From IMG/VR virus record IMGVR_UViG_3300022929_002455, positions 1 to 28,922 of that record: a stretch of DNA of 28,922 nt. One strand, 5' to 3'. Source of the DNA: a virus. The first letter of the stretch is position 1. The number at the start of each line of letters is the position of its first letter. Under the pieces are notes generated by a model. The model was not told where the DNA came from, searched no databases, and saw only the letters and a list, made by a program, of their open reading frames with translations. This document shows, piece after piece, positions 10,517 to 15,969 of this stretch. The position numbers and the translations under genes were made by a program.

Positions 10517-11131
10517 ATGGCTGAATTTAATTACCGCGTTCCGAATGTAATTTTTAAAACTCGGGTGCGTGATGAAACTATCACTGAAGGAAATCCCTTT
10601 CGATGGGAGCATATAACCTCTCAAGAACTCTTTGCTGGGAAACGAGTCATTGTATTCTCACTTCCTGGAGCATTCACTCCTACATGTTCTACATTCCAGT
10701 TGCCTGACTTTGAGAAAATGTTTCCTGAGTTTCAGGAACAGGGCATTGATGAAATCTATTGCATGTCAGTGAACGATGCATTCGTGATGAATGCTTGGGC
10801 TAAGTCTCAGGGGTTGCGGAATGTAAAGGTGATTCCTGATGGTTCTGCTATCTTCACTACTTACATGCATATGGATGTGAAGAAAGACAATCTAGGCTTC
10901 GGTGTTCGCTCTTGGCGTTATGCTATGATTCTTGATGATATGAAAGTCGAAAAGGCTTTTGTGGAACCTGGTCTACAGGACAATGCGGATGATGATCCAT
11001 ATGGTGTCACTTCCCCGCAGAATATCATGAAGTATTTGAAAGGTGAGGATTTTGATGCAGGACCCACAACGGGCAGACAACTTACCCTAAACTTGTCTGA
11101 TGGTGTTGACTCAAAGGCGACAATGAGTTAA
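10517..11131 (+). CDS. Peroxiredoxin, Prx5/AhpC-TSA type
   Basis: This 204-aa protein has the peroxidatic active site PGAFTPTC (P50, T54, C57), the Prx5-class form, and the conserved Arg region VRSWRYAMILDD (about 130-141). The family reduces H2O2 and alkyl hydroperoxides using a thiol donor. A second Cys lies in IYCMSVND (about residue 81), but it is not clearly the usual resolving position, so a 1-Cys mechanism is possible. The tail after about residue 170 is longer than in many Prx5 proteins. It lies between gp45 and gp44, splitting a normally close replication pair, with 10-nt and 30-nt gaps. Likely protection of the infected cell from oxidative stress, which is inferred. Confidence 0.92.
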   Translation: MAEFNYRVPNVIFKTRVRDETITEGNPFRWEHITSQELFAGKRVIVFSLPGAFTPTCSTFQLPDFEKMFPEFQEQGIDEIYCMSVNDAFVMNAWAKSQGLRNVKVIPDGSAIFTTYMHMDVKKDNLGFGVRSWRYAMILDDMKVEKAFVEPGLQDNADDDPYGVTSPQNIMKYLKGEDFDAGPTTGRQLTLNLSDGVDSKATMS

Positions 11132-11161: not shown

Positions 11162-12094
11162 ATGTCAGATGAATTTTTGTGGGTCGAGAAGTATCGACCT
11201 CGTACACTTGATGAGTGTATTCTGCCTGATGCGCAGAAGGATGTGTTCAAGCAGTTTGTTGCGTCAGGTGAGATTCCTAACATGCTCCTCTGCGGCACTG
11301 CTGGCACAGGTAAGACTACAGTTGCCCGTGCCCTTTGCAATGAACTTGGGTGTGACTACATTGTAATCAACGGCTCAGAAGAATCAGGCATTGATGTACT
11401 TCGCACAAAGATCAAAAACTTTGCGAGTACAGTTTCATTTGAAGGTAAGCCTAAGGTTGTTATCTTAGACGAGGCTGACTATCTGAATCCTAATTCTACA
11501 CAGCCTGCTCTTCGTGCATTCATCGAGGAGTTTTCTAAGAATTGTCGATTCATCTTCACATGTAATTTTAAGAATCGTATCATTGCTCCTCTACACAGTA
11601 GGACTACTGTTGTTGAATTCAAACTTGTGAATGGTCAGAAGAAAAAGATGGCTACCAAGTTTCACAAGCGCATGATGGATATCCTAAAGACTGAAGGCGT
11701 AGAGTACAATGATAAGGTTCTCGCTGAACTGCTGATGAAACACTTCCCTGACTATCGCAGGGTGTTGAATGAGTTACAGCGATACAGTGCGGGCGGTGTC
11801 ATAGATGAGGGCATTCTAAGTAACCTATCTGAACTGAACACTAAGGCTCTAGCAGATGCCCTAGCAGATAAAGATTGGAAGAAGATGCGTCAATGGGTCG
11901 CTAACAATGTTGACTCGGACCCGCAAACTGTGTACAGAAAAGTATACGATACACTGCTTGAGCGAGCCAAGCAGGTACCGCAGTTTGTGTTAATCATTGC
12001 CGACTATCAGTACAAAGCGGCATTTGTAGCAGACCAAGAGATTAATCTCACGGCATGCTTAACCGAGATTATGGCGAATGTTGAAATCAAATAG
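11162..12094 (+). CDS. 44: Clamp loader large subunit, gp44-like
   Basis: This 310-aa AAA+ clamp loader ATPase has VEKYRPRTLDE at residues 8-18, Walker A GTAGTGKT (45-52), Walker B DEAD (103-106), a sensor-1 region FTCNFKNRI (about 132-140), and SRT at 146-148 where clamp loaders usually have SRC. The length equals the T4 family. It loads the gp45 ring with gp62. Unlike T4, gp62 is not next door: 2.4 kb of accessory sequence separates the two. A Shine-Dalgarno (gagagg) precedes the ATG. The Cys-to-Thr change in the SRC motif is outside the catalytic Arg and should not abolish function. Confidence 0.95.
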   Translation: MSDEFLWVEKYRPRTLDECILPDAQKDVFKQFVASGEIPNMLLCGTAGTGKTTVARALCNELGCDYIVINGSEESGIDVLRTKIKNFASTVSFEGKPKVVILDEADYLNPNSTQPALRAFIEEFSKNCRFIFTCNFKNRIIAPLHSRTTVVEFKLVNGQKKKMATKFHKRMMDILKTEGVEYNDKVLAELLMKHFPDYRRVLNELQRYSAGGVIDEGILSNLSELNTKALADALADKDWKKMRQWVANNVDSDPQTVYRKVYDTLLERAKQVPQFVLIIADYQYKAAFVADQEINLTACLTEIMANVEIK

Positions 12095-12096
12095 GG

Positions 12097-12204
12097 TTAC
12101 AGTTTGTATGTATACTCTGAATAATCTATTTCTATATATTTAATGATTTTATCTAGACGGCTACACTTCATTAATCTGTCGAATTTTTTCCATAGTCTTT
12201 TCAT
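12097..12204 (-). CDS. Candidate 35-aa basic mini-protein, minus strand
   Basis: The ATG at 12204 opens 35 codons ending in TAA at 12097-12099, only 2 bases after the gp44 stop on the other strand. The product starts MKRLWKKFDRLMK, a basic amphipathic helix pattern, and ends in a Tyr-rich stretch. It begins 5 bases after the stop of the upstream minus-strand ORF, an operon-like arrangement, but no Shine-Dalgarno is visible. Every other gene in the window is on the plus strand. A short ORF in AT-rich DNA may be chance, so confidence is low. Confidence 0.25.
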   Translation of the reverse strand: MKRLWKKFDRLMKCSRLDKIIKYIEIDYSEYTYKL

Positions 12205-12209
12205 TGAAT

Positions 12210-12317
12210 TCACACAAAAATGAAGAGGCAAAGAATTATTGCCATAGAAAAACGAAGTAATAACATATGGCGATAAGCCTGATCAACCGTGTAAGATTTA
12301 TTAAATAGTGATTTCAT
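12210..12317 (-). CDS. Candidate 35-aa single-span membrane mini-protein, minus strand
   Basis: The ATG at 12317 is preceded on its own strand by AGGGGG with a 4-base gap to the start, a plausible Shine-Dalgarno. The product begins MKSLFNKSYTVDQAYRH and ends in a hydrophobic run (MAIILCLFIFV), so a short tail-anchored membrane peptide is predicted. I use this internal start, not a far upstream ATG that would run across the RHH gene. The AT-rich block at 12331-12390 would hold its promoter. It could be a small toxin-like or host-membrane peptide, but the function is unknown and chance occurrence is possible. Confidence 0.35.
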   Translation of the reverse strand: MKSLFNKSYTVDQAYRHMLLLRFSMAIILCLFIFV

Positions 12318-12413
12318 GGTGCCCCCTATAATTACTATTAATATATTAAGTATATATACTATATATAATAATTTAAATTTCAATGTTACAAAATTGTGAC
12401 AAAAGGGTGAGAA

Positions 12414-12557
12414 ATGTCGGAAAAAAATGACCAACTCCTTGTGAAGATAAACAAGGAAGACAAAAAGGAATTCATCAAGGTGTGTAAAGAACTTGATACT
12501 TCTGCAAGCCGTGAGGTAAGGCACTTCATTAAGAAGTTTATCAAAGATAATAAGTAA
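12414..12557 (+). CDS. 47-aa ribbon-helix-helix DNA-binding protein
   Basis: This small gene encodes 47 residues starting MSEKNDQLLVKINKEDKK. The pattern is that of an Arc/CopG-type ribbon-helix-helix protein: a short strand QLLVKIN (about 7-13), a first helix EDKKEFIKVCKEL, a turn with DTSASRE, and a second helix REVRHFIKKFIKDN. A purine-rich site (aaagggtgag) precedes the ATG. Its stop shares a base with the radical SAM start (TAATG), so the two are coupled. RHH proteins usually repress their own promoter or act as antitoxins. The AT-rich region just upstream is the obvious operator candidate, but that is inference. Confidence 0.7.
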   Translation: MSEKNDQLLVKINKEDKKEFIKVCKELDTSASREVRHFIKKFIKDNK

Positions 12558-13630
12558 TGTGGTCCTTTGACAATCTAAATGCAGTGCATCTAGAGTTGAG
12601 TAGCCGATGTAATGCCGCTTGTCCTGGTTGCCCAAGATTCCTTAGAAACTCACCTAATGTTGATCCTGACTTAACACAAAGAGATATTAGCCTATCTGAT
12701 TTCAAGTCTTGGTTTAGTCCAGAGATCCTCAAGAAAATTAGAAGCTGGCACATTTGTGGCACTCATGGTGACCCTATCACATGTAAGGATTTGATTGAGA
12801 TTGTAAGTTACATTTGTGAATACAGTGATGGTTCAATTCAAATTCACACTAATGGCGGGGCAAGAAATGAAAACTTCTTTTCAAAATTAGGAAAGGTTTT
12901 ATCCGACAATACAATACCAGGTAGAGTTAGAGGAGTCGTCTTTTCTGTTGATGGCTTAGAAGATACCAATCACTTATATAGAAGACAGGTGAAGTGGGAT
13001 AAACTGATTAAAAATATGAAAGCCTATGTAGCCACCGGGGGAATGGCAGGCTGGCATTTTCTTAGGTTCGCACACAACTACCATCAGATTGAAGAAGCAA
13101 AGCAATTAGCAGAAAGTCTTGGTGTGCATTTTAAAGTTAAGAATCCTTTTGGTGTTGATGGTGTGGGTATGCCTGTATATGATAAAAGTTATAACTTAGA
13201 CTATGTTATAAATCATTATGAAAGACCTGAAGAAAAACCATACACACCTCCTGAAATAGGCTACATCGCACCTATGCCTAAAAAAACAAACAAGCAAGGA
13301 TGCATTGAGTGTGCGTCATTTAGGCAGTATGGAACTCTTAACATAAATGAGATATACATTGACCACTTGGGTCGTGTACATCCATGCTGTTATGTTGCTA
13401 ACAAAATGTTTGGTCCGTCTATATCAGAAGAAGCTACCGAAGTTAGGTACATACAAAGTAAGTTGAGAAATAAAAATAGTCTGTATTACCATAATCTAAA
13501 GGAAATCATTGACAGCGATGTGCTTAAAGTATATAGTGATAGCTGGGAAAATAAATCTATTAATCAATGCTGGGTACAGTGTGGTGGAGATAGACTCATT
13601 GATAAATTATTTGTAAGGGAAATTGAATGA
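12557..13630 (+). CDS. Radical SAM enzyme with SPASM-like cysteine tail
   Basis: This 357-aa protein has the CxxxCxxC cluster motif at C18, C22 and C25 (CNAACPGC), very near the N-terminus. A SAM-binding-type segment HICGTHGDP follows (about 65-73). In the C-terminal third lie six further cysteines: C249/C252, C277/C278 and C338/C342. That is the spacing style of SPASM/twitch domains holding extra Fe-S clusters. Such enzymes often modify peptides (thioether, C-C or epimer products). No obvious precursor peptide is adjacent, unless it is one of the minus-strand mini-ORFs. It overlaps RHH by one base and TauD by four (ATGA). The family is recurrent in marine phages, but its substrate is unknown. 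Confidence 0.88.
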   Translation: MWSFDNLNAVHLELSSRCNAACPGCPRFLRNSPNVDPDLTQRDISLSDFKSWFSPEILKKIRSWHICGTHGDPITCKDLIEIVSYICEYSDGSIQIHTNGGARNENFFSKLGKVLSDNTIPGRVRGVVFSVDGLEDTNHLYRRQVKWDKLIKNMKAYVATGGMAGWHFLRFAHNYHQIEEAKQLAESLGVHFKVKNPFGVDGVGMPVYDKSYNLDYVINHYERPEEKPYTPPEIGYIAPMPKKTNKQGCIECASFRQYGTLNINEIYIDHLGRVHPCCYVANKMFGPSISEEATEVRYIQSKLRNKNSLYYHNLKEIIDSDVLKVYSDSWENKSINQCWVQCGGDRLIDKLFVREIE

Positions 13631-14499
13631 TTAAATGTCTTGACATCAACATTGAAGAGACTTGCCCTGAGATGTCAGAGCAAGTTTTTTCTGACCTCAA
13701 GGAACATTTGATTGTAGTGATACCTAGACAGACTACTGACCCTATTTACGCATCAAGGCTCATTCACAACATGAGTTATCTTGCTAACATGGATCAGCTA
13801 GTATGGGATACTGAAGGTAACATGTTAGGTTCACCTGAGTCGTACATAGACCCATGGAGTGTAGATACTATGCCTGTGCAGAGAGTCACAGGAGAAAAGA
13901 AAGCCGATAATTACACTGGCATATTTCCTGTAGGTGAACTAGGTTGGCATGCCAACTTGAATGGTCCTAAGAGAGCAGATGGGGTAGCACTACAAGGTGT
14001 GCGTGATGTTGCTGGAACAGTTACCTCTTGGATAAACACTGCTGAAGTCATTAAAGAAATGAAAGTAGAAGAGCCTGACCTGTATGATTCTATTCAAGAT
14101 AAGTGGTGTTCCTATAAATATGATGGTGGACTTGGATGGTCTACACCTGTGAACGAAAAGCAAATCGCTTACATGCAAAAGAACGCCAATGAATATTCTA
14201 TGCGAATACTGCAAAAGAATGTAGCAGGTGTTGAAGGAATGTATTTCTACACCAATAACAATCAGGAAGCAGTTGACTATGAATTAATGTCTGAACTGAA
14301 ATCTTTTATTCACCAAGAAAGATTCATGTATCATCATCATTGGGAAGTCGGCGATCTTGTTTTGAGTGACCAACTTCTAACACTACACAGGAGAGAGCCT
14401 TACCCTACCAGTGTGTTAGAAAAGCGTGTGCTTCACAGATGGACATTTCCTATCAGCAATGCAATCGACCCTGAATACATTTTAAAGAGGAATAGTTAA
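13627..14499 (+). CDS. TauD/TfdA-family 2OG-Fe(II) oxygenase with altered metal triad
   Basis: This 290-aa protein follows the TauD layout. The proximal ligand motif is GWHAN, with H108 and N110 where the family has H-x-D. The distal His is H254 in DQLLTLHRR, and a 2OG-binding-type Arg is R271 in LHRWTF. The WEVGDLVLSDQ stretch before the distal His matches the family strongly. The Asp-to-Asn change is unusual: the Asp is an iron ligand, and Asn can weaken iron binding or open a site for another ligand. The protein may still be active, may be a halogenase-like variant, or may be a non-enzymatic relic; the otherwise clean gene argues against decay. It is coupled to radical SAM upstream and to gp62 downstream (TAATG). 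Confidence 0.85.
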   Translation: MIKCLDINIEETCPEMSEQVFSDLKEHLIVVIPRQTTDPIYASRLIHNMSYLANMDQLVWDTEGNMLGSPESYIDPWSVDTMPVQRVTGEKKADNYTGIFPVGELGWHANLNGPKRADGVALQGVRDVAGTVTSWINTAEVIKEMKVEEPDLYDSIQDKWCSYKYDGGLGWSTPVNEKQIAYMQKNANEYSMRILQKNVAGVEGMYFYTNNNQEAVDYELMSELKSFIHQERFMYHHHWEVGDLVLSDQLLTLHRREPYPTSVLEKRVLHRWTFPISNAIDPEYILKRNS

Positions 14500-14942
14500 T
14501 GCTTGAAGGCATGGGTGATCCAGTAGTCTCTTTTGATGCTGAAGAATACAAAGAAAAGAAAAAGGCAATCAGCCCTTTTGATTTTGCTAATAGTATCAAT
14601 CATAGCAAAGAAAACTTAATTGTTGATGACTGGAGCGAGAAGCAATACAATGCTTTCATCGTGAACAAGGCTATGAGTTATGGTCCTGACACTGTGATTG
14701 CGGCAAATGAAATGAATGCTCGTCCTCACATAGCATCAAAGATGCAATATGATTTTCTTTTGAATGTAGTGCGACCTAAGAAACGATACAACAAATGGTT
14801 AAAGCCCGAGAAAGAGGAAAGGCTAGAGATTATCAAAGAGTACTATGGCTATAGCAATACTAAGGCGCAAGAGGCGTTGAGATTGTTATCAGAAAAGGAT
14901 TTAGATGTGTTGAAACAAAGGATGTTCAAAGGAGGTAAGTAA
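14499..14942 (+). CDS. 62: Clamp loader small subunit, gp62-like
   Basis: This 147-aa protein has the marine T4-like gp62 pattern: SPFDFANSIN (residues 25-34), YNAFIVNKAMS (50-60), the KMQYDFLL stretch (81-88), KKRYNKW (94-100) and a helical C-terminus ending in GGK. It lacks ATPase motifs, as expected: gp62 is the structural partner of gp44 in loading the gp45 clamp. It is shorter than T4 gp62 (187 aa), as in other marine relatives. Its start overlaps the TauD stop by one base, so its translation is now coupled to the accessory cassette and not to gp44. The order gp62 then RegA is kept from T4. Confidence 0.93.
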   Translation: MLEGMGDPVVSFDAEEYKEKKKAISPFDFANSINHSKENLIVDDWSEKQYNAFIVNKAMSYGPDTVIAANEMNARPHIASKMQYDFLLNVVRPKKRYNKWLKPEKEERLEIIKEYYGYSNTKAQEALRLLSEKDLDVLKQRMFKGGK

Positions 14943-15013: not shown

Positions 15014-15427
15014 ATGAGTGACTTTTTTGACATTGATATTCCCGGCTATAAGCCGCTGGAAGTCAAGCTAGAACATGCAGATGATTTTCTGAAAATTCGT
15101 GAAACCTTATCACGCATTGGAGTGGCATCTCGCAAAGACAAAACCCTGTATCAGTCCTGCCACATTTTACACAAGCAAGGTAGATACTTCATCACACACT
15201 TTAAAGAGTTGTTTGCCTTGGATGGTAAACATGCAAACTTAGACGATACGGATTTGGCTAGAAGAAATGCAATCGCAAAACTTCTAGCAGACTGGGGATT
15301 ATTGACGATGGTTTCTCCTGAGTTGCATGAAGACCTTGCACCTATAGGACAAATTAAAATTATATCTTATAGAGAGAAAGATGAATGGGAACTAGTGACG
15401 AAATACAACATAGGGCGGAAGAACTAG
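15014..15427 (+). CDS. regA: RegA translational repressor
   Basis: This 137-aa protein has the conserved RegA segments KIRETLSRIG (residues 27-36), LYQSCHILHKQG (45-56) and HFKELFALDG (62-71), then RRNAIAKLLADWGL (83-96). The C-terminus is DEWELVTKYNIG. RegA binds the start regions of selected early mRNAs and blocks their translation, including its own and clamp/clamp-loader genes in T4. Targets here are unknown; gp45 and gp44 share a TATATTATGRG leader that is worth testing. The leader before its ATG is A-rich (gaataaaaaa). Its last 43 bases are overlapped in another frame by the following oxygenase gene. Confidence 0.95.
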   Translation: MSDFFDIDIPGYKPLEVKLEHADDFLKIRETLSRIGVASRKDKTLYQSCHILHKQGRYFITHFKELFALDGKHANLDDTDLARRNAIAKLLADWGLLTMVSPELHEDLAPIGQIKIISYREKDEWELVTKYNIGRKN

Positions 15428-15969
15428 ATTGTTGTACCCCTGTACCTGATCTTATAACCGAAGAAGAAAAGACACAACTACTAGAAATTTGGAATTGGAT
15501 TAAATCCAATTACCTAATTGAATATCAAAGGGATACCTACCCAGGATATATGCTCAATGGTGTATATTCTTCGGATATATGGTGTAACTGGAGAAGCAAA
15601 GACAGAAGGTATGTTGTGTCTCTTGCGCAAAGGTATCCCCATCCTCAACCTAAATTACTTACTGCTTCACTGGTAGTAATTCACAAAGGGGGGATAGGGG
15701 CTAAAAAGCACATAGACAAACACCCTGGTAGAAGGTGTGTGGTGTCCATTCCTCTGCAAACAGAATCGCCAATACTTTTTTACGAAAACGAAAACAGCAC
15801 AGAACCAATGGTGTCGGTTAAATATGATACTCCTATGTTATTAAATGTAGGACAAAAGTATCATTCAGTACCATCTTCTGACAAAGATAGAGTCATGCTT
15901 CAGCTAATTTATGGTGAAACATACCAAACAATGAAAAAAAGATTTGAGGAGTGGGGGCAAAGTATATAA
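15385..15969 (+). CDS. 2OG-Fe(II) oxygenase-like protein
   Basis: This 194-aa protein has a double-stranded beta-helix iron-site pattern: H109-I-D111 (KKHIDKH), a distal H160 (GQKYHSV) and R169 (KDRVML). RCVVSIPLQ lies between them, as in aspartyl-hydroxylase-like or phage prolyl-hydroxylase-like enzymes. All three metal ligands are present, in contrast to the TauD-type protein upstream. Its ATG lies within regA (43-base overlap, different frame), following a GAGAGAAAG site, so translation depends on ribosomes leaving regA or reading it in parallel. The substrate is not known; the short length and N-terminal helix (EEEKTQLLEIW) fit a small protein or amino-acid hydroxylase, which is inference. 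Confidence 0.75.
   Translation: MGTSDEIQHRAEELDCCTPVPDLITEEEKTQLLEIWNWIKSNYLIEYQRDTYPGYMLNGVYSSDIWCNWRSKDRRYVVSLAQRYPHPQPKLLTASLVVIHKGGIGAKKHIDKHPGRRCVVSIPLQTESPILFYENENSTEPMVSVKYDTPMLLNVGQKYHSVPSSDKDRVMLQLIYGETYQTMKKRFEEWGQSI

Follow-up and report, generated by a model that had tools for sequence, protein, structure and literature searches.

The window, by which we mean the entire 28.9-kb virus record that was analyzed, belongs to a marine T4-like phage. Along one part of it lie gp45, a peroxiredoxin gene, gp44, a spacer, genes for an RHH-like protein, a radical SAM (rSAM) protein and a TauD-like protein, gp62, and regA. The large subunit of the clamp loader is encoded by gp44 (positions 11162 to 12094, plus strand; phrog_168, E = 4.4e-125, and Gp44_lid), and the small subunit is encoded by gp62 (14499 to 14942, plus strand; phrog_225, E = 1.7e-42); these genes are the left and right borders of what we call the slot. 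They are 2404 nt apart, which agrees exactly with the coordinates and the distance of about 2.4 kb in the initial annotation. All three intervening genes are on the plus strand: the RHH-like protein of 47 amino acids (aa) at 12414 to 12557 (phrog_19878, E = 1e-6), the rSAM protein with a C-terminal twitch/SPASM-like Cys region at 12557 to 13630 (identified by motif and predicted fold), and the TauD/TfdA-fold protein, in which H108-A-N110 replaces the HxD motif, at 13627 to 14499 (identified by PF02668, predicted fold, and a PDB-profile alignment). The family assignments of gp44, gp62, and the TauD-like gene, which are made from sequence, are firm.

As was noted before, the inserted genes are chained into gp62. 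The RHH/rSAM and TauD/gp62 junctions are 1-nt TAATG overlaps, and the rSAM/TauD junction is a 4-nt ATGA overlap. The gp62 start codon thus overlaps the TauD stop codon, and a Shine-Dalgarno-like GAGG lies within the 3′ end of the TauD-like gene. Because overlaps of 1 to 4 nt are frequent elsewhere in the window (at least seven further junctions, at 350, 3071, 9066, 19418, 21436, 25713, and 26084), the overlaps alone do not set the three genes apart.

The AT-rich spacer that follows gp44 (12095 to 12413; about 320 nt, local GC content of 29%) was not commented on in the initial annotation. It belongs to the insert and is missing in the empty slots of L013, L014, and L101. On its minus strand is an open reading frame (ORF) of 35 aa (12210 to 12317) that begins MKSLFNKS, has a GGGGG stretch preceding its ATG, and may be a real small gene, judging from its translation. 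A second minus-strand ORF (12097 to 12231), containing KKFDRLMKCSRLDKIIK, is similar, when the translations are compared by eye, to minus-strand ORFs at the same position in L249 (KKFDDLMKQGRLSNVVK) and L253 (KKFDNLMKQGRLSNVVK). This second ORF is perhaps also similar to a plus-strand ORF of 39 aa in L011.

Other features of the window were also noted. The peroxiredoxin gene between gp45 and gp44 (10517 to 11131) is common to many related contigs. After regA, a 194-aa ORF (15385 to 15969) without a Pfam or PHROG match has HxD...H-like residues (KKHIDKH ... KYHSVP) and is possibly another protein of the 2-oxoglutarate (2OG) type. Rfam gave no match above its gathering scores, and a promoter scan gave 16 sites versus 10.7 expected, an uninformative excess. 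PADLOC reported no defense system of weight, and a reading of the locus as a defense system was dropped for that reason.

We gathered contigs by their relationship to gp44, gp62, the rSAM gene, or the TauD-like gene and read the gp44-gp62 interval in each. These related contigs contained 90 distinct inserts, plus 40 empty or short junctions; many of the slot sequences derive from marine samples that overlap, so the insert counts are not counts of independent events. The contents of the slot vary. It may hold TauD-like genes, single or in tandem; an rSAM gene alone (L011); an rSAM gene with genes for a 52-aa protein and a cytidylyltransferase-cupin (L009 and L010); a split rSAM gene with a TauD-like gene and a MazG/PRA-PH-like gene; or genes for a DUF481 protein, an alpha/beta hydrolase, a 2OG-FeII_Oxy_3 protein, or Dam. 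Isolates, too, have genes between gp44 and gp62: Dam in ACG-2014d, S-ShM2, and S-M1, an Fe2OG dioxygenase in Mosig, and a methyltransferase plus other genes in S-T4. Mapped onto a 114-row gp44 tree, occupancy of the slot by an rSAM gene requires at least 5 changes and occupancy by a TauD-like gene about 15, the latter count being approximate since L118 and L124 were scored as "other" despite carrying a TauD-like gene. The slot is empty in the phages whose gp44 is closest to that of the window (91% identity), and in L014 the gp62 ATG is apparently within the end of gp44. As far as gene order can tell, marine T4-like phages of this group use the gp44-gp62 junction as a cargo slot whose contents change.

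The hyperplastic or variable regions of T4-like phages and the gp44-gp62 inserts of cyanophages, such as Dam in S-ShM2, likewise place accessory genes amid conserved replication genes. The slot described here differs in that it often holds TauD-like and rSAM genes, usually with a stop-start overlap onto gp62. A second insertion point adjoins gp44 on its other side: immediately upstream of gp44 in L121 (1992 to 3725) and L023 (3930 to 5663) is a gene for a 577-aa protein with an rSAM part and a C-terminal short-chain-dehydrogenase-like part, and in L121 this gene is preceded by a cytidylyltransferase-like gene.

The overlap with gp62 is a common property of the inserts. The final cargo stop codon is no more than 14 nt from the gp62 start in 64 of the 90 inserts, and the commonest junctions are ATGA (30 inserts) and TAATG (9 inserts); in 25 of the 90, the gp62 start has no cargo stop codon close by. 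In T4, the translation of the clamp-loader genes is coupled (PMC2988022 and the Torgov 1998 reference therein). We infer from the junctions that genes enter the slot in an arrangement that leaves reinitiation at gp62 intact. Successive phages fill the slot with different small genes, the last stop codon mostly coinciding with the gp62 start codon or lying close to it, and gp62 would thereby be recoupled to the cargo and no longer to gp44; the arrangement is read from the DNA, and the coupling is what we would expect in vivo. The slot thus illustrates how T4-like phages can add genes inside a replication operon with gp62 staying beside an upstream stop codon.

The initial annotation called the 47-aa product an RHH protein and placed the two enzymes under it as their own repressor. 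The sequence is RHH-like and has the PHROG match given above, but its scores are below the curated cutoffs (18 bits versus 23.4 for RHH_9 and 22.1 versus 45.65 for RelB_DinJ), and the RHH assignment, as a reading of the sequence, is weak. In L249, L250, and L253, an rSAM gene is preceded by a copy that is 93% identical (43 of 46 aligned residues), with the same TAATG junction, and the rSAM protein there is 63 to 65% identical to that of the window; L254 also has a copy upstream of an rSAM gene, which is cut off. Related copies are found between regA and hsp20 (the latter recognized by eye from its sequence) in L328, L330, L333, L336, L337, L339, and others. In these phages, gp44 and gp62 are adjacent, and there is no rSAM gene nearby. 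Between the window and the L249 copy, pN is 0.073 and synonymous sites are saturated, which indicates strong selection on the protein.

By its gene neighborhoods, then, the RHH-like protein is a resident of the replication operon, and its presence does not signal the enzyme pair. It may regulate the local operon, but it would not be a dedicated repressor of the rSAM and TauD-like genes, since elsewhere it sits without either of them. A toxin-antitoxin reading was rejected because the RelB-like score is well under its cutoff and there is no adjacent toxin.

The description of the second gene as a SPASM-like rSAM enzyme is supported by its motif and predicted fold, although its profile scores are below the cutoffs. 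The protein has the cysteines C18xxxC22xxC25, GxxxPC277C278, and C338xxxC342. Across 11 rSAM relatives, C18, C22, and C25 are invariant, as are C277, C278, C338, and C342, candidate ligands of a C-terminal auxiliary cluster; the SPASM Pfam score is under the cutoff. Because the protein falls below the Pfam and NCBIfam cutoffs, reaching with NF033640 (N_Twi_rSAM) 48.9 bits, far under the 170 set by NCBIfam, the assignment is based on the CxxxCxxC motif and the predicted structure. That structure (pLDDT of 83) matches SPASM/twitch enzymes with Z scores of about 15 to 18 by VIA; the protein is like the twitch/SPASM enzymes (the SuiB, SkfB, MoaA, BlsE, and BtrN folds) in its CxxxCxxC core, its putative twitch-like Cys region, and its predicted fold. 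RiPP maturases, MoaA, sugar-acting enzymes, and viperin-like enzymes score near one another in the VIA list, and thus the substrate class is not readable from the fold.

The nearest relatives of the rSAM protein (63 to 68% identity) are located in the slot. Remoter ones (55 to 30%) are at other phage loci, beside structural genes or in gene clusters that include epimerase-, cytidylyltransferase-, and other rSAM-like genes, several of these identities being assigned by eye. In eight slot loci (L137, L140, L153, L133, L135, L142, L143, and L144), the rSAM gene is split into overlapping genes for a core of about 260 aa and a Cys-rich twitch-like tail of about 85 aa. Both reading frames stay open over a shared 35 nt, and in each of the eight loci the second ATG has an AAGGA-like stretch ahead of it; separate translation is therefore simpler than a programmed frameshift, which we rejected. 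The unrelated rSAM gene of L238 is likewise split.

The third gene had been annotated as an oxygenase, and its membership in the TauD family is well supported. The protein scores 59.8 bits against PF02668 (cutoff, 27), its AlphaFold model, from 47 sequences, has a pLDDT of 93.2 and a pTM of 0.92, and by VIA the model matches Pseudomonas putida TauD (3pvj) with a Z score of 24.1 and a root mean square deviation of 2.5 over 247 residues. The predicted fold is clearly that of TauD, and we do not consider it in doubt. With the TauD/TfdA Fe(II)/2OG dioxygenases (PF02668; 1gqw, 3pvj, and the AAD-2 structure 5bke), the protein shares the fold over nearly the full chain, the proximal His, the distal His, and the 2OG-binding Arg region. 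It differs from the solved structures in having Asn for the metal-ligand Asp, in being only about 12 to 18% identical, and in having no link to taurine.

The HxD/E...H facial triad is absent from the window protein, which has H108-A-N110...H254, a feature that the initial annotation did not point out. In the PDB-profile alignment, its WHAN is aligned to WHTD of E. coli TauD (1gqw), so that N110 corresponds to Asp101, the metal-ligand Asp of that enzyme. Among 70 distinct full-length relatives, this residue is Asn in 67 and Asp in 3; an earlier alignment had 71 Asn, 2 Asp, and 3 truncated sequences. The retrieval patterns for the family did not contain the HxN motif, but the family was gathered from contigs seeded by HxN members, and in these counts HxD members are perhaps undersampled. 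The isolates Mosig, P-HM1, and P-HM2 have HSN. Relatives on bacterial plasmids have HTD in 3 of 3 cases (two aligned and the third read directly); two genome scans with a narrow pattern returned no bacterial relatives. In two tandem slots (L213, 5992 to 8012, and L214, 920 to 2499), the first TauD-like gene encodes HxN and the second HxD. A search of the open literature found no report of a 2-His-1-Asn or HXN 2OG oxygenase. As far as could be found, then, the swap to HxN is conserved throughout the phage family and apparently has not been described before.

Does the loss of the carboxylate mean the loss of chemistry? The change from HxD to HxN may have abolished oxygenase activity. If so, the HxN proteins would be noncatalytic sensors or scaffolds that bind 2OG or metal. 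The replacement of Asp by Asn takes away a charged metal ligand, and the HxN and HxD copies in the single slots of L213 and L214 would fit a division of labor between pseudoenzyme and enzyme. But W107, H108, H254, R267, and R271 are invariant in the 47 sequences, whose members are 21 to 57% identical to the window protein, and R267 and R271 fall on the RIMHR region of TauD, in which Arg binds the C5 carboxylate of 2OG. A dead active site would not ordinarily keep H108, H254, R267, and R271 invariant at such divergence, and we think this possibility rather unlikely.

A carboxylate ligand is not needed by all 2OG enzymes: aspartate/asparagine beta-hydroxylase (AspH), which has two His ligands, and the HXA/G halogenases are active without one and are a precedent for catalysis by HxN proteins (PMC10947486). 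In FIH, replacement of the ligand by Gly kept some activity and replacement by Ala or Glu did not (PMC10947486). AspH and the halogenases resemble the HxN proteins in their lack of a carboxylate ligand, although they have Gly or Ala where the phage proteins have Asn (PMC10947486, PMC13168262). That shared feature, a hallmark of the halogenases (PMC10947486), together with the chloride-rich seawater in which these phages live, would suit a 2OG-dependent halogenase or pseudohalogenase with halide in the vacated site. We regard this as a very doubtful reading of the HxN proteins: Ala and Gly were never seen here, 67 of 70 relatives have Asn, which could itself occupy the site, and AspH does not halogenate in spite of having no carboxylate ligand (PMC13168262). 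Instead, the HxN protein most likely keeps Fe(II) and 2OG binding through its two His residues, with Asn or water as the third ligand, and would oxidize a small molecule or a macromolecule.

We also asked whether the three genes travel together. The initial annotation had proposed a self-contained modification system under its own repressor. Spelled out, the RHH protein would repress rSAM and TauD-like enzymes that work together on one substrate, and the genes would move as a unit. The tight overlap of the three genes would agree with this, as would the recurrence of the RHH-rSAM TAATG junction in L249 and L253 and the adjacency of rSAM and TauD-like genes in at least three subfamily combinations (the window type, the split-slot type, and L238, where the pair is outside the slot, near uvsX/thyX). 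But the complete trio turned up in no contigs other than the window and four that are nearly identical, and each of its genes occurs without the others. Relatives of the rSAM gene are in the slot without a TauD-like gene in L008 to L011, L249, and L253. TauD-like genes are in the slot of many phages without an rSAM gene, and many more are at unrelated loci; only 8 of 70 distinct TauD-like genes have an rSAM gene within three genes, and 62 do not. Thus, with the RHH-like gene also found between regA and hsp20, the genes do not always sit at gp44/gp62.

The gene trees, besides requiring the many changes on the gp44 tree given above, do not fit a single origin of the pairing. AU tests rejected a single clade for rSAM-paired TauD-like proteins (P = 2e-58) and for TauD-paired rSAM proteins (P = 9e-100), and also rejected one origin of all slot TauD-like genes (P = 1e-7). 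The window's TauD-like gene groups with the nonslot genes L173 and L176, and L173 shares a 39-kb contig with the rSAM slot locus L010, so that one phage carries both genes but at separate places. We therefore rejected the trio as a mobile unit. By these comparisons, members of different subfamilies have come together as rSAM-TauD pairs on at least three occasions. Such repeated pairing suggests a partnership, but a TauD-like gene is present in about two of four slot rSAM lineages, which is about what the frequency of TauD-like genes in the slot predicts. A statistical association at the level of lineages is accordingly not claimed, and the adjacency may reflect chance pairing in a slot that favors both types of gene. 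In sum, the earlier interpretation holds for the site of insertion, gp44/gp62, and for the stop-start overlap that leads into gp62, but not for the unit; with genes that occur separately and slot contents that vary among 90 inserts, a self-contained system is improbable.

The best overall reading, to which we give a probability of roughly 0.6, is that the slot carries an operon-resident RHH-like protein, a twitch-type rSAM protein, and an unusual HxN enzyme of the 2OG type. Expression of the rSAM and TauD-fold proteins most likely accompanies that of the replication genes, and each would be a tailoring enzyme in its own right, attacking unactivated C-H bonds. Several relatives of both proteins have as neighbors genes for fatty acid desaturase, cytidylyltransferase-cupin, aminotransferase, or carbamoyltransferase, neighbors that suit tailoring enzymes. 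More tentatively, and at less than even odds, these proteins may be a widespread phage 2OG family that uses a natural 2-His-1-Asn iron center, is repeatedly placed beside rSAM proteins in marine phages, and makes an as-yet-unseen modification during replication.

The HxD/E...H triad is the cue by which annotators recognize 2OG oxygenases, with few exceptions (the halogenases and AspH). The conservation of HxN over divergent phages, and its occurrence beside HxD in one slot, amounts to a natural experiment on the need for the carboxylate ligand. Related TauD-like proteins with the same HxN (HSN) are T4-GC447 of the Prochlorococcus phages P-HM1 and P-HM2 and Mosig_00075 of the Pelagibacter phage Mosig, which are 22 to 27% identical to the queries used and are sited elsewhere (in the gp59-gp32 region and on the tail-fiber side). 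Sullivan 2010 (PMC3037559) lists GC447 by annotation as a taurine catabolism dioxygenase, seemingly without mention of the motif. Because the "taurine dioxygenases" of P-HM1, P-HM2, and Mosig share HxN, the taurine-catabolism reading should be reconsidered.

Two groupings of such genes away from the slot were also noted. In L230 (3674 to 6804), three HxN TauD-like genes lie beside a fatty acid desaturase-like gene. Near the tail fiber genes of phage Mosig (L166, 46547 to 67248) are TauD, several MoaA-like rSAM, aminotransferase, Asp_Arg_Hydrox, fatty acid desaturase-like, and carbamoyltransferase genes, a group that, from its gene content, looks like a small biosynthetic cluster.
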